A DNA stretch of 64,000 nucleotides, taken from positions 571,840 to 635,839 of the forward strand of contig NZ_FMZO01000002.1 of assembly GCF_900101395.1 (NCBI RefSeq), read 5' to 3'. The notes under the pieces were generated by a model that ran no database searches, was not told the origin of the DNA, and was given only the letters and a program-made list of their open reading frames with translations. The translations under genes and the position numbers were made by a program. This DNA is from Niabella drilacis (GTDB taxonomy: Bacteria; Bacteroidota; Bacteroidia; Chitinophagales; Chitinophagaceae). Positions 28,339 to 58,612 of the stretch are shown here, in pieces. Position 1 is the first letter of the stretch. Each line of letters starts with the position of its first letter.

Positions 28339-28494
28339 TTTTAATGGATCTTCAATGACTGCTCCCGGTGGAAATAAAAAATAGCAGGAAATTGTTTAGG
28401 CAGGGGCCTGGAATGTTGCCTGCAAAACGCCGCTAATATTATACTTTTCTCCCGAAAGCTGAATATTGTTATTCTCCGCTCTGTGGCGGAACAC

Positions 28495-28685
28495 GGTCCT
28501 GGCAGGTCTTCTGGCTCGGGGTCACTTTAAAACCTTCCCGCAGCGCAAAGCACTGCAGTGGCAATAATTAAAGTGTTCTTTATTTTCTTTTGAAAATTAA
28601 AGAGACCCTTACAGCTACGGGGATAGCGCCGGACTTGCACCGGACTTCCCTTTTCATTCCCGCATGCGGGAAACCAGATCCGGTG
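28495..28685 (-). promoter_or_regulatory. cobalamin (B12) riboswitch
   Basis: On the reverse strand the conserved pieces appear in order: GGGAAGTCCGGTGCAAGTCC near 28635-28655, GCTGTAAGGG, the core GCCACTG near 28555-28561, and the B12 box AGCCAGAAGACCTGCC at about 28499-28515. It lies in the 5' leader of btuB, about 160 nt before the ATG. Cobalamin binding normally represses the downstream gene. A GC-rich hairpin (CCCGCATGCGGG) sits at its 5' side. Boundaries are approximate. Confidence 0.92.
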
Positions 28686-28693
28686 CAAATGTA
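28686..28693 (-). promoter_or_regulatory. TAnnTTTG promoter element of the B12-riboswitch/btuB transcript
   Basis: Reverse-strand TACATTTG immediately before the riboswitch, so the transcript would begin at the aptamer itself. Confidence 0.55.
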
Positions 28694-34735: not shown

Positions 34736-34824
34736 TTGTTTTTTTCAGTTTTTAGACCCTTGTAATCATTACAGGGCCGGGTTAAAAAAAATAATGAGAG
34801 GGAAATGCTGAAAAGAAAGGAGCG

Positions 34825-34918
34825 ATCCTTCCCTGCGCAGGCATTACCCTGATCAGGTTTACGGGTATTATCTCAGCCTTTTCTTCCGCTGTTGGCGAAA
34901 GTTGAAGCACCCCGGGAA
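34825..34918 (-). promoter_or_regulatory. TPP (THI-box) riboswitch
   Basis: Reverse strand, in order: GGGGTGCTT (34905-34913), GGCTGAGATAATACCC (about 34863-34878), AACCTGATCAGGGTAATGCC (about 34841-34860) and GCGCAGGGAA at the closing stem. These are the conserved THI-box pieces. It lies about 90 nt before the ATG of the TonB receptor. Downstream of it, GGGAA and TTTCCC can pair ahead of an eight-T run, a possible expression-platform terminator. Confidence 0.93.
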
Positions 34919-34920
34919 CC

Positions 34921-34978
34921 TGCCCCGCCGGTGGCGGGGCACTAAAAATCTCATTGCGTTTGACAATCAGCGTCAAAC
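34921..34978 (-). other. two extra hairpins 5' of the TPP riboswitch
   Basis: A perfect GC-rich inverted repeat (TGCCCCGCC-GGT-GGCGGGGCA, 34921-34941) and a second one (GTTTGAC-AATCAGC-GTCAAAC, 34958-34978) lie between the promoter element at 35005 and the riboswitch. Neither is followed by a T-run on the transcribed strand. Role unknown. Confidence 0.5.
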
Positions 34979-48619: not shown

Positions 48620-50302
48620 CTATTTTTTGCGAAGGTTCGGATGCGGAGGAGCCACAGTATTAGGCCCGTCCTCGCCCGGAGCTGCTGCACGGATATCTAC
48701 AGTGTTGCAGTCTCCACCTTCCTGGCCAGAGGAGAAGATAAAACGGTCTCCGCTGATGCCTTCTTTTTCCTGTAAGTGAGTGATCACTTTATTTACGTGA
48801 TCCCAGCTTAATTGCTGCTGGCGTTTGGTTGCTGCACAGTAACCCACTACGACAACTTTACAGTTAGGGTTGGCTCTTAATTTGGAAGCTATGGTAGCTA
48901 AGGCTGCAGTAGCATCGGAAGAAAGCGTATTGGAATTAGCTTTAAATGCTACGCTTGGTAATGCTCCCAGTAAGGTAGCGCACTCAGGTTCTGCAATTTT
49001 ACAGTCATCGGGGCAGGGGCATTTTCCAACGCCATCTGCATCAACCGGCTGGCAGTAAGTAGGAGTAACCAGTTCTTTATCTTTGCAATCCGGAACGCCG
49101 TCGCCATCTGTATCACGGCTTACACCATGCGTGTCAACAGGGCAGCCGGCAGGCGTTTGTTCCTGGTCAAACTGGTCTGTAACACCATCACCATCAGAAT
49201 CAGGCAGTACGATCTCCGGCACGCGGCGCAGTTCACCATAAGCATAGTTCAGCGGATTCAGCCAGTATAAGGGCTCTACTCTTCTCTTTTTGGAACCAAT
49301 GTTATAGTTAATGCCTAAAGTGAGATAGTTCATGAAATCTTTATCGGGGGTCAGGGTTCCCTGATCGGTCCAGCGCTGACCATCCAGCAGGTCAGAACCA
49401 TTGTAGATGATCCGGTCTTCCAATGCAATATTGAAACGTGGGCTTAAGCGGAGCGCCACACCCATACCACCGGTAACGGAAGCGGCAACAGAGCCGGCAA
49501 ACACGTGGGAGTAACGGATGCTGGGATCTGCTTCAATCGGAGTGTCAAACATATCATCCTGTAGGTCCTTCAGTTGTTTCAGAACGTCTTTCTTGCCGGT
49601 AGCTGTAATTTTGCTATAGTCATACGCAGCGCTTTCCAAATCACCGTTTACTTCGTGCATCGCATTTACGCGACCATCCCAGGTAGTAATACCCACACCA
49701 CCCAGGGCATAGAAGGTAACGCCTGTTTGATCCTTATAAAACCGGATGTTATGAAGATTGGCGATCAACTGCAGGCTCAGCTCCTGTACAGTGGTTTTGT
49801 AATTGTAATAAACACTGGGGAAGTTGATGGGGTTCCATACATTATTCCCGGCTAACACGCTGTTCCGCTGGTAACGGTAATACCAGGGGTTGTCCATCCC
49901 GGTAAACTTATAACCGGAAGAAGGGCGCCAATCCTGGCCTTTGGCAATACCATACATATATTCCAGCCGCAGCGACAGGGTGTGCCCCAGTGATTTGCGG
50001 ACATGGAGACCAAAACCGGGGCTCAGCATTTCTGAACGAACATCACCGTTAACGCTGAACAACCCGCCTTTAAGACCAATTTCCCACATGTCTTTGGGTT
50101 TGGGAGGATAGTCGGTCTGCCCTGTTACAAAATCACGGAACTGCTGTTGATTTTTCTTCGAATAATACTGCGAATCAGTAATGGAAACAGGCCCGTAAAT
50201 CGGGTGGGGGGCCGTGTAAGGATGGGTTCCGCTAACCTGGGCTTTTGAGCTGCCATAAGAGCAGATAGCTAAGGCTAGGAGGAGGGTTTTGGAATGGTTC
50301 AT
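48620..50302 (-). CDS. OmpA-family outer-membrane protein with calcium-binding (TSP3-like) linker
   Basis: 560 residues: signal peptide (MNHSKTLLLALAICSYGSSKAQ), an N-terminal beta-barrel-like region (about 60-340; GLKGGLFSVNGDVRSEMLSPGFGLHVRKSLG, aromatic-rich strands), a Cys-containing Asp-rich linker with thrombospondin-type-3-like repeats (DSDGDGVTDQFD, DTDGDGVPDCKD, CPCPDDC) and a C-terminal OmpA-like peptidoglycan-binding domain (VAFKANSNTLSSDATAALATIASKLRANPNCKVVVVGYC). The final part (SSGQEGGDCNTVDIRAAA) is close to the usual NRRV region but degenerate. It should tether the outer membrane to the cell wall. TATATTTG at 50390-50397 and a small hairpin (GTACCCC/GGGTATAC) lie in its leader. 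Confidence 0.9.
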   Translation of the reverse strand: MNHSKTLLLALAICSYGSSKAQVSGTHPYTAPHPIYGPVSITDSQYYSKKNQQQFRDFVTGQTDYPPKPKDMWEIGLKGGLFSVNGDVRSEMLSPGFGLHVRKSLGHTLSLRLEYMYGIAKGQDWRPSSGYKFTGMDNPWYYRYQRNSVLAGNNVWNPINFPSVYYNYKTTVQELSLQLIANLHNIRFYKDQTGVTFYALGGVGITTWDGRVNAMHEVNGDLESAAYDYSKITATGKKDVLKQLKDLQDDMFDTPIEADPSIRYSHVFAGSVAASVTGGMGVALRLSPRFNIALEDRIIYNGSDLLDGQRWTDQGTLTPDKDFMNYLTLGINYNIGSKKRRVEPLYWLNPLNYAYGELRRVPEIVLPDSDGDGVTDQFDQEQTPAGCPVDTHGVSRDTDGDGVPDCKDKELVTPTYCQPVDADGVGKCPCPDDCKIAEPECATLLGALPSVAFKANSNTLSSDATAALATIASKLRANPNCKVVVVGYCAATKRQQQLSWDHVNKVITHLQEKEGISGDRFIFSSGQEGGDCNTVDIRAAAPGEDGPNTVAPPHPNLRKK

Positions 50303-50389
50303 ATTTTTTGGGTTTTGATATATTCTTCAGAGCTGTTGGTGTACCCCTTTTAGGGTATACGAAAACAGCTATAAATATATAGTGACGTG

Positions 50390-50397
50390 CAAATATA
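50390..50397 (-). promoter_or_regulatory. TAnnTTTG promoter element of the OmpA-family gene
   Basis: Reverse-strand TATATTTG, about 87 nt before the ATG at 50302. Confidence 0.5.
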
Positions 50398-50616
50398 TGA
50401 TTTATCGTCAATTTGTTAAAAAAATAATAAGGGAAAATTCCGTTTTTTTGTCAGATCTTTTTCTGATTCGAAACGGGGATGGATGGCAGGAAGATATGGC
50501 CCCCGGCATACGGTCCTCTTTGCGGGAGGTCGGGGCCGGGGTAGCGTGCTTGTTTTGGCATAATAGAAATTAATTAAAAACTATCGTTAGTTGTGAAATA
50601 TTTTTTAAATATTTAT

Positions 50617-50646
50617 TTTGAAATTTGAATTTTCGTTTTATCTTTG
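50617..50646 (+). promoter_or_regulatory. promoter of the aromatic amino acid operon
   Basis: TTTG (50617-50620), 18-nt spacer and TATCTTTG (50639-50646), close to the consensus seen at tRNA-fMet. It ends 10 nt before the leader-peptide ATG. Confidence 0.7.
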
Positions 50647-50656
50647 AACCTCAATT

Positions 50657-50740
50657 ATGAGGTCAACAAAGTTTTATACCTGGTTTTATTTTAGCTTCTT
50701 CTTTTTTAGCGGAAAGCCGGGTATGCTTTTGTCGAAATAA
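50657..50740 (+). CDS. aromatic-rich leader peptide of the Phe/Tyr/shikimate operon (attenuator)
   Basis: A 27-codon open frame. Codons 6-17 read F-Y-T-W-F-Y-F-S-F-F-F-F: seven Phe, two Tyr and one Trp in twelve codons, with four Phe codons in a row at 50696-50707. It lies between the promoter at 50617-50646 and an intrinsic terminator at 50773-50801, upstream of prephenate dehydratase. This is the arrangement of classical ribosome-mediated attenuation (as in the pheA and trp leaders of enterobacteria). When charged tRNA-Phe is scarce the ribosome should stall in the Phe run, leaving GCCGGG (50716-50721) free to pair with the terminator's 5' arm. The peptide is too short for usual gene prediction. 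No function beyond regulation is expected. Confidence 0.85.
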   Translation: MRSTKFYTWFYFSFFFFSGKPGMLLSK

Positions 50741-50772
50741 TTTTTGTAAAAAATCATTCAGAATAAAAGAGG

Positions 50773-50801
50773 ATCCCGGCGAAAAAGGCCGGGATTTTTT
50801 T
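50773..50801 (+). terminator. attenuator terminator hairpin
   Basis: ATCCCGGC (50773-50780) pairs with GCCGGGAT (50788-50795), loop GAAAAAG, followed by a T-run to 50801. The 5' arm (CCCGGC, 50775-50780) can alternatively pair with GCCGGG at 50716-50721 inside the leader peptide frame, the probable antiterminator. It ends 22 nt before the prephenate dehydratase ATG. Confidence 0.88.
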
Positions 50802-50823
50802 GTAATTGTTTAGTCGGGAAAAA

Positions 50824-51678
50824 ATGACAAAAGAGGCAACATCAGGCAGGACAGTACATATGGCCATACAGGGCTACGAAGGAAGCTTTCACCAGGAGGC
50901 AGCGAACCTCTTCTTTAAGAAGAACGTTACGGTAGCCTGTTGCGATACCTTTAAAGAAGTGATTGCAGCCGCAAAGGACCCGGCCCGTACCGATGGATGC
51001 TTAATGGCGATCGAGAATTCCATTGCCGGCAGTATCCTGCCCAATTACAATTTACTGCAGGCGAGTGACCTGAGGATCATTGGTGAGGTATATATGCAGA
51101 TCAACCAGAACCTGCTGGTAAACCCGGATGTAGAGCTGGAGGATATAAAGGAAGTGCATTCGCATACCATGGCTTTGCAACAGTGTTATGAATACCTCGA
51201 TCAGTTCCGGTGGAAACTGGTGGATGCAGATGATACGGCCTTAAGTGCCCGGCATATTGCCCAGCATAAGGCCCGGCATATTGCGGCTATCGCCAGTAAA
51301 CTGGCGGCAGAGCTTTACGGGCTGAAGATCATAGCCCCCAAAATTCAGACCTTAAAGAATAACTATACACGCTTCCTGGTACTGCGTCGTAAGGAAGACC
51401 TGGGAGAAGCAATGGAAGGAGATAAAGCCTCCATCAATTTTCACACAGACCACTCCAAGGGGAGCCTGGCCAAAGTACTTTCCATTATTGCCCGGGAAGA
51501 GGTTAATATGACCAAACTGCAGAGCTTCCCGATTCCCGGAACCCAGTTCCGGTACCAGTTTCATGCGGACATGGAGTTTGAGCAAATAAGCGATTTTGAA
51601 AAAGTAATGGAGAAGATCAAGCCTGTTACAACCGGCTTAAAAGTTTATGGTATTTATAAAAGAGGTTCATGGAAATAG
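50824..51678 (+). CDS. pheA: prephenate dehydratase
   Basis: 284 residues from the ATG at 50824; an upstream TTG at 50806 lies just after the terminator T-run and is unlikely. Catalytic domain: IQGYEGSFHQEAANLFF, GCLMAIENSIAGSILPNY, and the NNYTRFLVL motif with the catalytic Thr. C-terminal ACT domain (ASINFHTDHSKGSLAKVLSIIAREEVNMTKLQSFPIPGTQFRYQFHADME). The enterobacterial ESRP signature for Phe binding reads LQSFPI here. There is no fused chorismate mutase; that is fused to DAHP synthase three genes on. Converts prephenate to phenylpyruvate. First structural gene of the attenuated operon. Confidence 0.95.
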   Translation: MTKEATSGRTVHMAIQGYEGSFHQEAANLFFKKNVTVACCDTFKEVIAAAKDPARTDGCLMAIENSIAGSILPNYNLLQASDLRIIGEVYMQINQNLLVNPDVELEDIKEVHSHTMALQQCYEYLDQFRWKLVDADDTALSARHIAQHKARHIAAIASKLAAELYGLKIIAPKIQTLKNNYTRFLVLRRKEDLGEAMEGDKASINFHTDHSKGSLAKVLSIIAREEVNMTKLQSFPIPGTQFRYQFHADMEFEQISDFEKVMEKIKPVTTGLKVYGIYKRGSWK

Positions 51679-52838
51679 CAAAAAGATTACAAGGTGTTGG
51701 GGAATATTATTTCTCCAAAAAGCTGAGGGAGATCGACAGCCTGAATCGGCAGGGGAAGCATATCATTAACCTTGGTATAGGCAGCCCGGATCTGCCGCCG
51801 CACCCGGAGGTGATTAAGACCCTGCAGGAAGAGGCCCAAAAGACCCATGTGCACGGTTATCAGAATTACAAAGGCAGCCCGGTTTTACGCGAGGCTTTCG
51901 CTTCCTGGTACCAGCGCTGGTATGGTGTGGCACTGGACCCCGATACGGAAGTGCTGCCCCTTATAGGCAGTAAGGAGGGCATCATGCATATTTGCATGAC
52001 CTACCTGAATGAGGGCGATGCCGCCCTGGTGCCCAACCCGGGTTATCCTACCTATCGCAGTAATGTTACCATTGCGGGAGGCGTATGTATCGACTATGAA
52101 CTTAAGGAAGAAAATAACTATCAGCCGGATCTTGCAGTGATAAGGGCAAAGGATCTTTCCCGTGTAAAGCTCATGTTTGTCAACTATCCGCAAATGCCTA
52201 CCGGCCAGCAGGCGGATATGGAAGTGATGAAGGAACTGATCGCTTTTGCAAAAGAGCACCGGATATTACTGGTGCACGACAATCCTTATAGCTTTATCCT
52301 GAATGACCGTCCTGTCAGCATCCTGGGCATCGAAGGTGCAAAAGAAGTAGCCGTGGAACTGAACTCACTGAGCAAGTCGCACAATATGGCCGGCTGGCGG
52401 GTGGGCGTGCTTTGCGGTGCTGCAGACCGGATCAATGAAGTGCTGCGTTTCAAAAGCAATATGGACAGCGGGATGTTTTTACCCCTGCAACTGGCGGCGG
52501 CTACTGCTTTAAGCCTGGGCCGGGATTGGTATGATGAGGTGAATGCGGTATACAGGGCGCGGAGAGAAAAAGTATATGCCCTGCTGGATCTGCTGGGGTG
52601 CACCTACTCAAAGGACCAGGTGGGTTTATTTATTTGGGCCGCTATACCCTCCGGATACAAAGATGGGTATGAGCTGGCGGATGCTGTGTTGTATAATGCA
52701 GATGTGTTCATAACTCCGGGAGGGATCTTTGGAGCGGCCGGCGACCGGTATATCCGGATTAGCCTGTGCGGATCAATTGAGCGGTTTGAAACAGCCATCG
52801 CCCGGGTAAGCGCGCAGTTAGAGAAGATCAGGAGTTGA
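51669..52838 (+). CDS. class I/II pyridoxal-phosphate aminotransferase (aromatic pathway)
   Basis: 389 residues. Fold-type-I aminotransferase: INLGIGSPDLPPHPEV, YPTYRSNVTIAGG (PLP-stacking Tyr), LVHDNPYSFI (Asp that contacts the PLP nitrogen), SLSKSHNMAGWRVGVLCG (Schiff-base Lys) and YIRISLCG (substrate carboxylate Arg). Its start overlaps the end of pheA by 10 nt, so translation is coupled. The place between prephenate dehydratase and dehydrogenase suggests transamination of phenylpyruvate and 4-hydroxyphenylpyruvate (or of prephenate), making Phe and Tyr. The family also contains aspartate and LL-diaminopimelate aminotransferases. Confidence 0.92.
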   Translation: MEIAKRLQGVGEYYFSKKLREIDSLNRQGKHIINLGIGSPDLPPHPEVIKTLQEEAQKTHVHGYQNYKGSPVLREAFASWYQRWYGVALDPDTEVLPLIGSKEGIMHICMTYLNEGDAALVPNPGYPTYRSNVTIAGGVCIDYELKEENNYQPDLAVIRAKDLSRVKLMFVNYPQMPTGQQADMEVMKELIAFAKEHRILLVHDNPYSFILNDRPVSILGIEGAKEVAVELNSLSKSHNMAGWRVGVLCGAADRINEVLRFKSNMDSGMFLPLQLAAATALSLGRDWYDEVNAVYRARREKVYALLDLLGCTYSKDQVGLFIWAAIPSGYKDGYELADAVLYNADVFITPGGIFGAAGDRYIRISLCGSIERFETAIARVSAQLEKIRS

Positions 52839-52935: not shown

Positions 52936-53787
52936 ATGGTCAATCGTAAAAAAATCGCAATTATAGGAGTGGGGCTCATCGGAGGGTCGATGGCCTTGCA
53001 GCTGCATGAAAAGAAGCTGTCTTCCCTGCTTATTGGCGTAGAAGCCAGTAAGGAGCATGCCTCCCAGGCGCTGGAGTATGAACTGGTGGATGAGTTCCTG
53101 CCACTCAACGAGGCCATTGCCGCGGCGGAGGTGATCGTGCTGGCCATCCCGGTAAATAAAATGGTGCATTTGCTGCCCCGGATCATGGACCAGGTCACTG
53201 ATCAGATCGTGATGGATATGGGGTCTACAAAGGCATCGGTGATCGAGGTATTGAAACAGCATCCCCGGCGTGGTCGTTTTGTAGCCACGCATCCCATGTG
53301 GGGTACCGAATACAGTGGCCCCAAATCGGCTGTGCGCGGTGCTTTTGAAGGAAAAGCGGTGATCATCTGCAACCCCAACGAATCGGATGCTGACGCATTG
53401 GAATGGGTAAAAAAAATGTATGGCAAGATCGGGATGCGGGTGGTGGAAATGGAAGCAAAAGCGCATGATCTTCACGTAGCCTATGTAAGCCATATCAGTC
53501 ATATTACCTCGTTTGCGCTGGCCAATACGGTACTGGAAAAAGAGAAAGTAGAGAGCGCCATTTTCGAGATCGCCTCGGCCGGTTTTGAAAGCACCGTGCG
53601 GCTGGCCAAAAGCAACCCGGATATGTGGGTGCCTATTTTCCTGCAGAACAAGGATAATATTATTGACGTACTGACTGAACATATCGATCAGCTTACTAAA
53701 TTTAAGGAATCAATACAGACAGATGACAGCGGCCGCTTACAGGCATTGATCGCAGATGCCAATAAGATCCGGCGCATTATCAGATAA
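52936..53787 (+). CDS. tyrA: prephenate dehydrogenase
   Basis: 283 residues. Nucleotide-binding motif IIGVGLIGGSMALQL at the N terminus, then MDMGSTKASVIEVL, ATHPMWGTEYSGP (catalytic/prephenate His region) and SHISHITSFALA in the helical C-terminal domain. There is no chorismate mutase or ACT domain. Oxidatively decarboxylates prephenate to 4-hydroxyphenylpyruvate for tyrosine. It follows the aminotransferase by 97 nt in the aromatic operon. NAD versus NADP preference cannot be read. Confidence 0.95.
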   Translation: MVNRKKIAIIGVGLIGGSMALQLHEKKLSSLLIGVEASKEHASQALEYELVDEFLPLNEAIAAAEVIVLAIPVNKMVHLLPRIMDQVTDQIVMDMGSTKASVIEVLKQHPRRGRFVATHPMWGTEYSGPKSAVRGAFEGKAVIICNPNESDADALEWVKKMYGKIGMRVVEMEAKAHDLHVAYVSHISHITSFALANTVLEKEKVESAIFEIASAGFESTVRLAKSNPDMWVPIFLQNKDNIIDVLTEHIDQLTKFKESIQTDDSGRLQALIADANKIRRIIR

Positions 53788-53823: not shown

Positions 53824-54915
53824 ATGAAAACTCTTGAAATGACGGATAAGGAAAAAACACAACAGGTATGGGCAAAACGCCCCATCGTTATCAGCGGGCC
53901 CTGCAGCGCTGAAACAGAAGAACAGGTATTGGCCACGGCACAGCGCCTGGCTGCAACCGGTAAAGTAAATGTACTGCGCGCCGGCATCTGGAAACCCAGG
54001 ACCAAACCCGGAATGTTTGAGGGCATTGGCGCAAAAGGACTGCCCTGGCTGCAGGCGGCTAAAAAAGCAACCGGATTGCCTACAGCCGTTGAAGTGGCTA
54101 CCGCCAAACAGGTAGAGGCTGCACTGACCTTTGATGTAGACATCCTCTGGATTGGGGCACGTACCACGGTAAACCCTTTTAGTGTGCAGGAAGTCGCAGA
54201 CGCATTGAGAGGCGTGGATGTACCAGTACTGGTGAAAAACCCGATCAACCCCGACCTGGAGCTCTGGGGCGGAGGTGTGGAGCGGATCGCCCGTGCCGGT
54301 ATCAAAGACATCGGTTTGATCCATCGTGGATTTTCTTCTTATGGTAATACTCAGTTCCGTAATGCGCCCATGTGGCACCTGGCTATTGAAATGAAACTGC
54401 GTTTCCCCGACCTTCCGATCATTAACGATCCTTCGCATATCTGCGGTAACCGCGATGGCCTGTTCGATGTTGCGCAAAAAGCTATTGACCTGGATTATGA
54501 TGGGGTGATGATCGAGTCACATATCGATCCGGACAATGCATGGAGCGATGCCAAGCAGCAGGTAACACCGGAGCGCCTGAAAGAAATGCTGGAAGCAATT
54601 GTATGGAGAAAAGAGAGCAAAGACAATTCTGAATTGCAGGGCGGACTGGAAAAACTCCGTCAGCAGATCAACCACCTGGATGATGAAATGCTGCAGATCC
54701 TTTCCCAGCGTATGAAGATCGCGGATAAGATCGGCCAGTATAAAAAAGAAAATAACCTCACCATCCTGCAAACCAACCGATGGCAGGAGATCCTCGATAA
54801 GATGATGGCTAAAGGTGAAAAACTGGGATTGAGCAAAGACTTTATCATGAAGTACCTGGATGCAGTGCACCTGGAAAGCATCAATCACCAGAAAAATGTA
54901 ATGGACGCACAATAG
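53824..54915 (+). CDS. bifunctional DAHP synthase / chorismate mutase
   Basis: 363 residues. Residues about 15-265 are a KDPS-like (type I beta) DAHP synthase: IVISGPCSAETEEQVL, VLRAGIWKPRTKPGMFEGIG, KNPINPDLELWGGGVERI, PIINDPSHICGNRD, DYDGVMIESHIDP. Residues about 275-360 are an AroQ-type chorismate mutase (LRQQINHLDDEMLQILSQRMKIADKIGQYKKENNLTILQTNRW). One protein therefore starts the shikimate pathway and directs chorismate to prephenate; in such fusions the mutase domain commonly acts as the feedback sensor for prephenate or chorismate. An alternative ATG (METD-like, nearby downstream) is possible. It sits between tyrA and aroB. Confidence 0.95.
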   Translation: MKTLEMTDKEKTQQVWAKRPIVISGPCSAETEEQVLATAQRLAATGKVNVLRAGIWKPRTKPGMFEGIGAKGLPWLQAAKKATGLPTAVEVATAKQVEAALTFDVDILWIGARTTVNPFSVQEVADALRGVDVPVLVKNPINPDLELWGGGVERIARAGIKDIGLIHRGFSSYGNTQFRNAPMWHLAIEMKLRFPDLPIINDPSHICGNRDGLFDVAQKAIDLDYDGVMIESHIDPDNAWSDAKQQVTPERLKEMLEAIVWRKESKDNSELQGGLEKLRQQINHLDDEMLQILSQRMKIADKIGQYKKENNLTILQTNRWQEILDKMMAKGEKLGLSKDFIMKYLDAVHLESINHQKNVMDAQ

Positions 54916-55076: not shown

Positions 55077-56093
55077 ATGGAAAAAATCATAAAATTTTCG
55101 AACGCTTCCACGCATTTTTATTTCGACAGCTCTTTTAAACAGGTAACAAAGATCGCCGGCAAAAAATCACTGGTGGTTATTACCGATGAAAATATTTTCA
55201 AAGCGCATCCTGCCGCTTTTAAAGGCCTGAATGTAATTGTGCTGAAGCCGGGCGAAGCGTATAAGGTACAGGCCACGGTAGATGAAGTGATCGACACGCT
55301 TATAAAAATGGAAGCCGACCGGCAGACTGTGCTGGTAGGCGTTGGCGGGGGGGTGATCACGGATCTCACGGGTTATATAGCTTCTGTTTATATGCGGGGC
55401 CTCCGTTTTGGTTTTGTACCTACTTCTATCCTGGCGCTGGTGGATGCATCCATCGGGGGAAAAAACGGGATTGATGTAGACCGGTATAAGAACCTGGTGG
55501 GCATCATCCGGCAGCCCTCCTTTATTTTGCATGATGTGGTGTTCCTGCAATCGCTTCCCCGGAACGAATGGGAGAATGGCTTTGCAGAGATCATTAAGCA
55601 CGCCTGTATCAAAGATGCGCCTATGTTTAAGCAGCTGCAGCAGGAATCGCTGTCGTCGTATCAAAAAGACCAACAGAAACTGAGCCGCTTAATTCAGCGG
55701 AATGCGCTGATAAAAACCAAAGTCGTACAAAAAGACGAATTTGAAAAAGGCGATCGCCGGTTGCTGAACCTGGGGCATACCATCGGGCATGCGCTGGAAA
55801 AAGAATACGAGCTGATGCACGGGCAGGCGGTAGCCATTGGTACTACCTATGCATGCCATATTTCGGAACAGATGACCGGCTTTTCCCAAACGGAGGAAGT
55901 AGTAGCCCTCCTGGAGCAGTACCAGTTGCCTACCTATGCCGATTTTGACCGCAAAAAGGTGTTCGATAGTTTAAAGATGGATAAAAAAAGGGAGCGGAAA
56001 GAAATGAACTTTGTACTGTTGGATAAAATAGGCAGGGGAATTGTAAAAGCCATCCCGATGAAACAACTGGAAAAAATAATCAACAAATTATAG
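55077..56093 (+). CDS. aroB: 3-dehydroquinate synthase
   Basis: 338 residues. AroB motifs: VGGGVITDLTGYIASVYMRGLRFGFVPTSILALVDASIGGKNGID, ENGFAEIIKHACI, and the metal/substrate segment RLLNLGHTIGHALEKEYELMHGQAVAIG (Zn-binding His residues). Uses NAD and a metal ion to cyclise DAHP to 3-dehydroquinate, the second shikimate step. Part of the aromatic operon; the 161-nt gap before it contains the inverted repeat at 54928-54974 but no terminator. Confidence 0.97.
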   Translation: MEKIIKFSNASTHFYFDSSFKQVTKIAGKKSLVVITDENIFKAHPAAFKGLNVIVLKPGEAYKVQATVDEVIDTLIKMEADRQTVLVGVGGGVITDLTGYIASVYMRGLRFGFVPTSILALVDASIGGKNGIDVDRYKNLVGIIRQPSFILHDVVFLQSLPRNEWENGFAEIIKHACIKDAPMFKQLQQESLSSYQKDQQKLSRLIQRNALIKTKVVQKDEFEKGDRRLLNLGHTIGHALEKEYELMHGQAVAIGTTYACHISEQMTGFSQTEEVVALLEQYQLPTYADFDRKKVFDSLKMDKKRERKEMNFVLLDKIGRGIVKAIPMKQLEKIINKL

Positions 56094-56095
56094 GA

Positions 56096-56137
56096 GCTGA
56101 AGGCTGACGGCCGAACTCTCAAATCTCGAATCTCAAA
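56096..56137 (+). repeat. heptamer array abutting the aroA start codon
   Basis: GCTGAAG-GCTGACG-GCCGAAC then TCTCAAA-TCTCGAA-TCTCAAA; the last A is the A of the aroA ATG. Fills the whole aroB-aroA gap. Confidence 0.7.
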
Positions 56138-57483
56138 TGAAGATAACGATACATCCCTCAAAATTGTCCGGTAATATATATGCTGCAGCTTCCAAAAGCT
56201 CCATGCAAAGGGCCTGTGCCGCTGCATTACTTTCGACGCAGAAAGTTGTGATCAAAAACCCGGGGCACAGCAATGATGATATTGCGGCCATGGGCATTAT
56301 ACGGTCGCTGGGGGCAACAATTACCGAGGTAGACCGGGAAACCATTACAATTGAAAGTTCGTTTTTGAGCGATCCGGCGGCCATTGTCTCAAAGGAAGCT
56401 GCGGTGAACTGTGGCGAAAGTGGTTTGAGCATCCGGATGTTTACGCCCATTGTGTCGCTGTGCAATAATGAGGTGTTAATTAACGGAGAAGGGAGCCTGG
56501 TAACCCGGCCTATGGATTTCTTTGATGAAATACTGCCGCAATTGGGCGTATCTATTGCTTCCAGTAATGGCAAACTGCCGTTGAAAGTAAACGGGCCTTT
56601 ACAACCAAAGAATATTACCATCGATGGTTCGTTGAGCTCACAGTTCCTTACCGGGTTGTTGATGGCATTTGCCGCAGCTCCGCTTACAGAAGCCGTAACT
56701 ATCCGGGTAAACGACCTCAAGAGCCGGCCTTATATTGATCTTACGCTGGATGTAATGAAGAAATTTGGTCTTCAGGTACCGGAAAACAACAATTATGAAA
56801 CGTTTACATTTACCGCGGCCCAACCTGAAACCTTAAACCTGAAACCTGAGACCTTAACCTATACCGTTGAAGGCGACTGGAGCGGGGGCGCCTTTTTGCT
56901 GGTCGCAGGAGCCATTGCCGGCGATATTCATGTAAGAGGATTGCAGCAAACGAGCACACAGGCCGATAAAAAGATCCTGGAGGCGTTAATGGCCGCCAAT
57001 GCAGGCATTGCCATGGATGCAAAGGGTATTACCCTGCATGCGGCACCCATGACGGCTTTTGAGTTTGACGCCACGGATTGTCCGGACCTGTTTCCTCCGC
57101 TGGTGGCCCTGGCTGCCAATTGTACCGGTGTTACTGTCATTAAAGGTGTGAGCCGGCTGGCCCATAAAGAAAGCGACAGAGGACTGACGCTTCAGGAAGA
57201 GTTTGGAAAAATGGGGATCCGCGTAGCGCTCGACGGGGATCTGATGCGGGTACACGGCGGTCCGGTTAAAGGCGCACAGGTACATTCCAGGCACGATCAC
57301 CGCATTGCAATGGCTTGTGCCACTGCTGCTTTAAAAGCGGATGGCCCGGTAACGATTGAAGAGGCGGAAGCCATCAACAAATCCTATCCCGATTTCTACG
57401 ATCATTTAAAAGAGCTGGGCGCAACGGTTACAGGCGGACTGGAATACCGGGATGCGTTAAACGAAATTTATTCGGAGAAATAG
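56137..57483 (+). CDS. aroA: 3-phosphoshikimate 1-carboxyvinyltransferase (EPSP synthase)
   Basis: 448 residues. EPSP synthase landmarks: SKSSMQRACAAALLS (N-terminal substrate site), GESGLSIRMF, DGSLSSQFLTGLLMA, the TVEGDWSGGAFLL segment, RLAHKESDRGL (catalytic Lys/Glu, Arg) and HSRHDHRIAMACA. It joins PEP to shikimate 3-phosphate. Just before TVEGDWSGG there are about ten extra residues (QPETLNLKPETLT) encoded by a perfect-period heptamer array at 56824-56858, an apparent in-frame repeat insertion in a surface loop. The shikimate 3-phosphate-binding GESGLSIRM motif is the non-enterobacterial variant with Gly-Glu-Ser. The operon continues with aroC. Confidence 0.95.
   Translation: MKITIHPSKLSGNIYAAASKSSMQRACAAALLSTQKVVIKNPGHSNDDIAAMGIIRSLGATITEVDRETITIESSFLSDPAAIVSKEAAVNCGESGLSIRMFTPIVSLCNNEVLINGEGSLVTRPMDFFDEILPQLGVSIASSNGKLPLKVNGPLQPKNITIDGSLSSQFLTGLLMAFAAAPLTEAVTIRVNDLKSRPYIDLTLDVMKKFGLQVPENNNYETFTFTAAQPETLNLKPETLTYTVEGDWSGGAFLLVAGAIAGDIHVRGLQQTSTQADKKILEALMAANAGIAMDAKGITLHAAPMTAFEFDATDCPDLFPPLVALAANCTGVTVIKGVSRLAHKESDRGLTLQEEFGKMGIRVALDGDLMRVHGGPVKGAQVHSRHDHRIAMACATAALKADGPVTIEEAEAINKSYPDFYDHLKELGATVTGGLEYRDALNEIYSEK
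56824..56858 (+). repeat. five tandem heptamers inside the aroA reading frame
   Basis: CCTGAAA-CCTTAAA-CCTGAAA-CCTGAGA-CCTTAAC. The reverse complement (TTTCAGG, TTTAAGG) equals the units found between genes at 46020 and 46122. Confidence 0.8.
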
Positions 57484-57613: not shown

Positions 57614-58612
57614 ATGAATGCATTCGGACAATTATTCAGGATACAGATCTTTGGTGAATCGCATGGAGAATGTGTGGGGGTGGTACTGGATGGAATTCCT
57701 GCCGGCCTGGAAGTGCCTGTAGCGGATTTTCTTCCGGATATGGAACGCCGGAAAGGAGGGACCCAGAAAGGGGCCACTCCCAGGAAGGAGGACGATATCC
57801 CGCTGTTTAAAAGCGGCGTATTTAACGGTAAAACCACGGGGTTCCCGGTGATGCTTTATTTTGAAAACAAAAATACCCGCAGCGGGGACTATGAAAAATT
57901 AAGAAGCTTTCCAAGGCCCGGGCATGCAGATTTTGTAGCGCATAAGAAGTTTGGTGGTTTTGAAGACTATCGCGGCGGCGGGCATTTCAGTGCGCGTTTG
58001 ACCACGGGCCTGGTCGCAGCAGGCGTTATTGCAAAAAAGCTGCTGCGGGATGTTTCCATTGAAGCAAGGATTACAGAAATAGGCGGCGATCCGGATCCTG
58101 AAAGAGGATTACAGAAGGCTATTGAAGCCAAAGACTCCGTAGGTGGTTTGATCGAATGCCGGGTAAACGGGCTGCCGGTAGGGTTAGGTGAACCTTATTT
58201 TGATTCTGTTGAGTCGGTTTTGGCCCATCTCCTGTTTACGATCCCGGCGGTAAAAGGTGTGGAATTCGGCGCCGGCTTTGCCGCAGCAAAGATGTTCGGT
58301 TCGCAACACAACGATCCTATCGAAAATAATGAAGGAAAAACAACTACCAATAATGCGGGGGGGATTGTTGGCGGCATCTCCAACGGGAACGAGCTGGTAT
58401 TCCGTATCGCGATCAAGCCTACGGCATCCACACCCAAGCCCCAGCATAGCCTCAACTGGGAAACCGGCCAGATGGAAGATTTCTCTGTTAAGGGCCGCCA
58501 TGACCTGTGCGTAGCCCTGCGGGCGCCCGTAATCGTGGAAGCCGTTACCGCCATTGTACTGGCTGATTTTATGATGCTTGCAGGGAAAATAGACCGCGTA
58601 ATAGGGGAGTAA
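57614..58612 (+). CDS. aroC: chorismate synthase
   Basis: 332 residues, somewhat shorter than the usual 350-390. Conserved FMN-dependent active-site motifs are present: IFGESHGECVGVVLDGIPAG, RKGGTQKGATPRKEDDI, SFPRPGHADF, YRGGGHFSARLTTGLVAAG, the FGSQHND segment, TTNNAGGIVGGISNGNELVFRIAIKPT and GRHDLCVALRAPVIVEAVTAIVLAD. It converts EPSP to chorismate, the branch point that feeds the mutase encoded three genes upstream. Last gene of the aromatic operon as seen here; aroE, aroK and aroQ-type dehydroquinase genes are not in the window. Confidence 0.97.
   Translation: MNAFGQLFRIQIFGESHGECVGVVLDGIPAGLEVPVADFLPDMERRKGGTQKGATPRKEDDIPLFKSGVFNGKTTGFPVMLYFENKNTRSGDYEKLRSFPRPGHADFVAHKKFGGFEDYRGGGHFSARLTTGLVAAGVIAKKLLRDVSIEARITEIGGDPDPERGLQKAIEAKDSVGGLIECRVNGLPVGLGEPYFDSVESVLAHLLFTIPAVKGVEFGAGFAAAKMFGSQHNDPIENNEGKTTTNNAGGIVGGISNGNELVFRIAIKPTASTPKPQHSLNWETGQMEDFSVKGRHDLCVALRAPVIVEAVTAIVLADFMMLAGKIDRVIGE

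Follow-up and report, generated by a model that had tools for sequence, protein, structure and literature searches.

A predicted Phe/Tyr attenuator with a putative near-leaderless start in front of the aromatic operon of Niabella drilacis and its relatives

Organization of the locus

We analysed 64,000 nucleotides of Niabella drilacis DNA (contig NZ_FMZO01000002.1, positions 571,840 to 635,839, here called the window), in which a short leader is followed on the forward strand by genes for aromatic amino acid biosynthesis. An earlier note, made from the sequence alone, had read these genes as a seven-gene aromatic operon, and all seven match the expected Pfam families:

50824..51678, + strand, pheA, prephenate dehydratase (Pfam; ATG 50824 chosen as the start in this analysis)
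51669..52838, + strand, class I/II aminotransferase, presumably with an aromatic role (Pfam)
52936..53787, + strand, tyrA, prephenate dehydrogenase (Pfam)
53824..54915, + strand, DAHP synthase fused to chorismate mutase (Pfam)
55077..56093, + strand, aroB, 3-dehydroquinate synthase (Pfam)
56137..57483, + strand, aroA, EPSP synthase (Pfam)
57614..58612, + strand, aroC, chorismate synthase (Pfam)

All NCBIfam matches of the aminotransferase fall below their cut-offs. The closest named PheA proteins, from N. aurantiaca, N. pedocola and a Niabella MAG, are each 93% identical. Five intergenic gaps were searched for TAnnTTTG, the promoter box discussed below, and no further copy was found; two other plus-strand terminator-like sites, at 53615 and 55394, have 5 pairs each and lie within genes. 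Because the gaps hold neither another such box nor a plus-strand terminator-like site, the most economical view is a single transcript that starts at the leader promoter, and we infer that the seven genes share it.

Of 55 long loci compared, 48 have the seven genes arranged as they are here; among the remainder, four loci run out of sequence or miss the last one or two genes, and three (L060, L069, L080) carry the first two or three operon genes only. The operon is not identical everywhere, because in 29 of the 55 long loci (e.g. L046:4154-5833) tyrA and the DAHP synthase gene are separated by a gene for a DEAD-box RNA helicase that carries a DbpA RNA-binding domain. In 20 of 85 loci the best helicase match begins before pheA. 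An RNA helicase might travel with an RNA switch for a functional reason. Divergent from the leader lies a gene for an OmpA-domain protein (48620-50302, minus strand), with a weak match to PorG of type IX secretion far below the cut-off.

Rfam searches placed two RNAs of the window above the gathering score, a Cobalamin riboswitch (28484-28693, minus strand) and a TPP riboswitch (34812-34924, minus strand). For the leader itself, a T-box or riboswitch identity was rejected, as no Rfam family reached its gathering score there; membership of the Phe_leader family RF01859 was rejected, the score of 22.9 bits lying below the gathering threshold of 55, and MicC RNA (24.5 of 90 bits) and other sub-threshold matches were taken as chance.

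A leader frame rich in aromatic codons

The region upstream of pheA holds the following features:

50617..50620, + strand, TTTG, a weak candidate for the -33 element of a Bacteroidota promoter
50639-50646, + strand, putative -7 box TATCTTTG, which fits the Bacteroidota consensus TAnnTTTG, 10 nt before the leader frame
50657-50740, + strand, predicted leader peptide frame MRSTKFYTWFYFSFFFFSGKPGMLLSK, 27 codons
50672..50707, + strand, aromatic control codons (codons 6-17), 7 Phe, 2 Tyr and 1 Trp within 12 codons
50675-50687, + strand, segment 1, inside the aromatic codons (Y-T-W-F-Y), pairing with segment 2 in the fold of 50652-50750
50713-50732, + strand, segment 2 (AAAGCCGGGTATGCTTTTGT), common to helices 1:2 and 2:3
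50765-50780, + strand, segment 3 (AAAAGAGGATCCCGGC), common to the antiterminator and the terminator
50767-50801, + strand, predicted intrinsic terminator (segments 3:4), 14 pairs, -21.4 kcal/mol, z -5.6, ending in a T run

The earlier note had described a 27-codon frame with ten aromatics in twelve codons, seven of them Phe and four of these consecutive, and exactly this frame was recovered at 50657-50740. By predicted translation, it is a short frame rich in codons for the products of the biosynthetic operon downstream. It stands alone among the window's 1,520 short frames (8-70 codons, counted on both strands) in having at least 8 aromatics in 12 codons, the runner-up having 7. The leader peptide has no second copy in its own genome when used as a query at E values up to 10.

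As a check, the earlier note had proposed looking for constant aromatic codons upstream of pheA in relatives, and the codons proved to be widely retained. Of 117 genomes of the family, 80 yielded a PheA, and in 76 of these 80 a frame with 7 or more aromatics per 12 codons lies upstream (70 of 70 with 450 nt upstream searched, and 6 of the remaining 10 with 600 nt searched); the other four reach 6 in one case and 4 or 5 in three. No prephenate dehydratase match was obtained, by protein or Pfam search, in 37 of the 117 family genomes (30 of the 107 near-complete ones), and these are possibly Phe auxotrophs.

The family leaders and those of 15 named loci, minus two identical copies and with the window's own included, gave a set of 83 distinct leaders. 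Phe and Tyr codons both occur in all 83, Trp codons in 19, and the median is 10 aromatics. Phe residues number 507 and Tyr residues 275. Both Phe codons and both Tyr codons are in use (TTT 368, TTC 139, TAT 138, TAC 137). At least 9 aromatics in 12 codons were reached by 63 of the 83 real upstream regions and by none of 830 dinucleotide-shuffled ones, so that the frame is not a product of chance; at least 7 occurred in 22 of the 830 shuffles, and 5 or 6 in 230.

A class-wide draw of 149 genomes contained 40 with a PheA match, three of them in the family. Thirty-six of the 37 non-family loci were examined, a 39-residue fragment being left out, and 19 of the 36 reached at least 7 aromatics in 12 codons (18 of 27 and 1 of 9). 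Six more showed 5 or 6, a level that 230 of 830 shuffles reach as well. Two loci, L091 and L094, carry two tandem aromatic leader frames upstream of pheA; in L094 each is followed, by eye, by a terminator-like hairpin, an arrangement that would amount to two switches in series.

Predicted terminator and mutually exclusive helices

The terminator hairpin named in the earlier note is present at 50767-50801 with its 14 pairs, between the leader frame and the first gene. Computed folds indicate that the window RNA can form three mutually exclusive helices, 1:2, 2:3 and 3:4. The antiterminator proposed earlier, GCCGGG (50716-50721) with CCCGGC (50775-50780), is correct in both coordinates base for base, and helix 2:3 in the window, which uses the 5' arm of the terminator, is longer than those six pairs. 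Segment 1 overlaps the control codons and can sequester segment 2, and helix 1:2 is extended by a further helix from 50666-50671. Because segment 1 also pairs with segment 2, the layout corresponds to the full trp-type or pheA-type design. Folded in full, 50652-50781 is no more stable than shuffles (z -0.54).

Conservation of the terminator, likewise proposed as a check, was borne out: a script found a terminator-like hairpin in 80 of the 83 distinct loci, with two of the 80 wrongly picked (L004, L022), and found none in L007, L016 and L020. We compared the energy of each helix formed with a locus's own partner, with partners swapped between species and with shuffled partners. Helix 2:3 averaged -20.8 kcal/mol with its own partners, -17.2 with swapped and -9.8 with shuffled ones (80 of 83 loci, including the wrongly picked hairpins of L004 and L022); the own pairing was better than the mean of its swaps in 72 of 80 loci and no better in 8. 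For helix 1:2 the corresponding means were -19.1, -15.3 and -10.3 kcal/mol (83 loci), and the own pairing surpassed the mean of its swaps in 78 of 83 loci and that of its shuffles in 82 of 83, with 5 of 83 no better than swaps. Because the species are related, the p-values of these own-versus-swap tests overstate independence. Facing partners that differ between loci include CCGGAGG/CCTCCGG in L076, GATCGGG/CCCGATC in L077 and GCGGGG/CCCCGC in L043.

Covariation was then counted on alignments. The initial alignment, A1, contained two groups of leaders out of register by one base and was split by eye and pattern into A2 (46 rows, 45 distinct) and A3 (20 rows). Seventeen of the 83 loci entered neither count: five had no usable terminator pick (L007, L016, L020, L004, L022), and 12 fitted neither register (L012, L027, L043, L055, L060, L061, L062, L065, L072, L080, L082, L083). 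The counted pairs in A2 and A3 were chosen by hand from duplexes of member sequences, and this choice favours them. In the 46-row alignment, 9 of 18 pairs of helix 2:3 changed on both sides, 83.9% of cells were paired, and the covariation score of 0.136 was reached by 0 of 500 shuffles. When the partner was slid by 1-3 columns, pairing dropped to 33-53% and the score to 0.032-0.102, with 2 to 8 doubly changed pairs still present. The 20-row alignment gave 84.7% pairing and a covariation score reached by 10 of 500 shuffles; its three doubly changed pairs were reached by 304 of 500 shuffles and its further pair types by 495 of 500, neither being above chance.

RNAalifold predicted no pairs on A1 or A2. 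The failure on A1 can be blamed on the one-base register shift, and no such excuse holds for A2. On four MAFFT realignments it predicted the terminator only and no antiterminator. Compensating changes in relatives support the antiterminator of the earlier note, with mixed results in the 20-row alignment and no prediction by RNAalifold.

Position of the aromatic codons relative to segment 2

An exact CCGGG of segment 2 is found in 65 of the 83 leaders, with variants in the other 18. Counting exact copies only, with variants whose first bases are out of line excluded, the motif lies in codon phase 0 in 45 leaders, phase 2 in 12 and phase 1 in 6, and it follows the stop codon in 2 (L009, L082). 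Its occurrence in all three phases and past the stop indicates conservation at the level of the RNA rather than of the peptide.

In 41 of these 65 leaders the distance from the first base of the last aromatic codon to CCGGG is exactly 12 nt, and in 62 it is 11-15 nt. Twelve nucleotides is close to the distance between the A-site codon and the front edge of the ribosome. By such footprint lengths, a ribosome with the last aromatic codon in its A site would just reach segment 2, and a ribosome stalled earlier would leave it free. The aromatic block therefore seems to end where stalling would no longer be useful. In all 65 measurable leaders, Tyr codons (median 3) lie in the stretch in which a stalled ribosome would keep clear of segment 2.

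Promoter and predicted transcription start

The earlier note had named a consensus promoter. A sigma-70 scan of the plus strand from 50300 to 51000, which does not cover the Bacteroidota promoter type, gave no match, but the box at 50639-50646 fits the Bacteroidota -7 consensus. The consensus TAnnTTTG is taken from excerpts of PMC9723704 and PMC7366714, and the former places the box at -12 to -5. According to portions of PMC7366714, a -33 motif was deduced in B. fragilis and was unidentifiable in F. johnsoniae. Transcription is predicted to start near 50651, giving a 5' UTR of about 6 nt. As the box sits at -12 to -5 (PMC9723704, in part), 5' UTRs of about 0-6 nt would be expected across the leaders.

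In 69 of the 83 leaders, each given a single fixed start, the gap between an exact TAnnTTTG and the ATG is 3-10 nt; the number is 70 when alternative in-frame ATGs are allowed. The same spacing was found for 12 of 272 ordinary genes, whether or not alternative ATGs were allowed, and any TAnnTTTG within 100 nt upstream for 49 of 272; these control genes have free upstream sequence and come from the same loci, which are related, so that orthologues are included. From this spacing of the -7 box, the mRNA is predicted to be nearly leaderless. Outside the family, the 5' region of several leaders is longer. Leaderless mRNAs make up 5.5% in F. psychrophilum in the available text of PMC9723704, and 5' UTRs shorter than 10 nt about 3.7% in B. 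thetaiotaomicron in that of PMC7366714; by these excerpts, such near-AUG starts are rare in both mapped Bacteroidota.

His and Trp leaders of similar layout

In the same genome, a hisG leader MKILVHTHHHVTDLPV (HTHHH; L115) starts 7 nt after a TAnnTTTG-type box and a trpE leader MNYSNNNNWWWHGNSFGVL (WWW; L116) starts 6 nt after one, and a terminator-like hairpin follows both by eye. As read from their sequences, the His, Trp and Phe/Tyr leaders of this genome are of similar layout. Together with 59 further loci, these two formed a survey in which a His leader was found by reading before 29 of 31 hisG loci examined (46 family genomes have hisG; the script counted 30 loci, of which L134 was dropped as a false frame) and a Trp leader before 28 of 30 trpE loci (45 family genomes have trpE). 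An exact box lies 4-10 nt before the start in 23 of the 29 His leaders, the script having preferred box-bearing frames, and in just 8 of the 28 Trp leaders, there at 5-7 nt, with none within 40 nt in 19; the leaderless claim is therefore weak for trpE. No leader of the TAnnTTTG-ATG type was found at the ilvB and aspartokinase regions inspected (L182, L178-L180).

A broader proposal, which we put forward tentatively and hold to be slightly less likely than not, is that the amino acid attenuators of this branch of Bacteroidota are leaderless mRNAs that start at or just before the leader AUG, need no ribosome-binding site (Shine-Dalgarno sequences being reported absent) and let a ribosome occupy the transcript from the very beginning. 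A single design with swappable control codons (Phe plus Tyr, His, Trp) might then govern whole pathways, here DAHP synthase, three genes of the shikimate route and the Phe and Tyr branches as a unit, with the state without a ribosome being off.

Proposed mechanism and alternative explanations

The leader very probably controls transcription by ribosome-mediated attenuation, with charged tRNA-Phe and tRNA-Tyr as the signals read, and the pheA/trp-type reading of the earlier note gains support from the comparative test of codons, terminator and compensating changes. Every step in the cell, including the start of transcription, is proposed from the sequence. A transcription start some 6 nt ahead of the leader ATG would allow a ribosome to load at once. 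When Phe or Tyr is short, the ribosome would stall in the aromatic codons and cover segment 1; segment 2 would then pair with segment 3, blocking the terminator, and the operon would be transcribed. When both are plentiful, the ribosome would proceed over segment 2, helix 3:4 would form, and transcription would stop near 50801. If no ribosome loads, segments 1 and 2 would pair and the terminator would form as well, which would make the default state off.

The earlier note had proposed sensing of Phe. The Phe codons are indeed conserved, and the claim is extended here, since Tyr codons in 83 of 83 leaders imply that Tyr-tRNA should count as well. The same switch answering to Phe alone, with Tyr and Trp codons as fillers that keep the RNA pairing, would agree with the excess of Phe over Tyr (507 vs 275 residues) and with pheA as the first gene of the operon; we regard it as unlikely, because Tyr is present in every leader and in the stall-effective part of all 65 measurable ones (median 3), and tyrA lies within the operon. 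The strong terminator would also fit constitutive or growth-rate control of the operon, with the terminator partly read through and the leader frame merely tuning ribosome loading. We consider this very improbable, since it accounts neither for the aromatic block and the competing helices nor for the spacing, nearly constant at 12 nt, and the similar His and Trp leaders.

Hardly credible, in our judgement, is a different kind of RNA switch (T-box, aptamer) or a protein-binding leader in which the short frame is accidental. The long structured 5' region from promoter to first gene would suit it, but no Rfam family reaches the gathering score in the leader, and the frame is non-accidental by the count of 0 of 830 shuffles against 63 of 83 real regions at 9 of 12.

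If the attenuator reading charged tRNA-Phe and tRNA-Tyr operates as proposed, classical attenuation would govern much of the Phe/Tyr route in a phylum for which the literature searched hardly describes such regulation, and attenuation that dispenses with Shine-Dalgarno initiation could be put to the test at this locus. The order TAnnTTTG, 4-10 nt, ATG, control codons and terminator could also serve as a signature for finding leaders in related genomes.

Comparison with known systems

The Bacteroid-trp motif is linked to trp genes, also by its name. The present leader differs from it in concerning Phe and Tyr, whereas Trp is concerned there, and no match to the motif (RF01692) at gathering score was found in the window or in three trpE loci (L116, L148, L155). 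Lopatovskaya et al. 2010, cited as a comparative attenuation study, could contain earlier predictions. RF01692 is described, in the part of Weinberg et al. 2010 available (PMC2864571), as a predicted cis-regulatory RNA of Bacteroidetes. No description of a Phe/Tyr attenuator in Bacteroidota was found in the literature searched; the nearest is a general remark, in excerpts of PMC9723704, that operons for amino acid biosynthesis in Flavobacterium psychrophilum show strong signs of leader-peptide attenuation in their upstream regions. That case resembles ours in belonging to the same phylum, and since the excerpts leave the operons unspecified, it may overlap with the Phe/Tyr leader. In Sinorhizobium meliloti, the attenuator RNA rnTrpL begins at the leader-peptide AUG and is leaderless, according to the text available of PMC7298713. 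The leader studied here would resemble rnTrpL in its start, predicted to be nearly leaderless, and differs from it in that rnTrpL is a Trp attenuator of an alphaproteobacterium (PMC7298713, in part).

Like the E. coli trp attenuator, the leader can form competing helices 1:2, 2:3 and 3:4, and its segment 1 likewise lies within or close to the control codons. In trpL, the stop codon precedes segment 2. The present leader is unlike it in reading other amino acids and in a frame that usually covers segment 2. The enterobacterial pheA leader consists of a Phe-rich leader peptide, a terminator and a competing antiterminator upstream of pheA, and the Niabella leader is like it in all of these. Unlike the enterobacterial leader, it mixes in Tyr codons; seven genes, including tyrA, aroB, aroA and aroC, lie downstream; the mRNA is predicted to be nearly leaderless; and the frame runs through segment 2 in most leaders. 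Taken together, the Phe/Tyr leader is, to judge from its sequence, a classical ribosome-mediated attenuator in design, and what sets it apart from the enterobacterial pheA leader is the reading of two amino acids, the reach over seven genes, the predicted leaderless start and the frame through segment 2.
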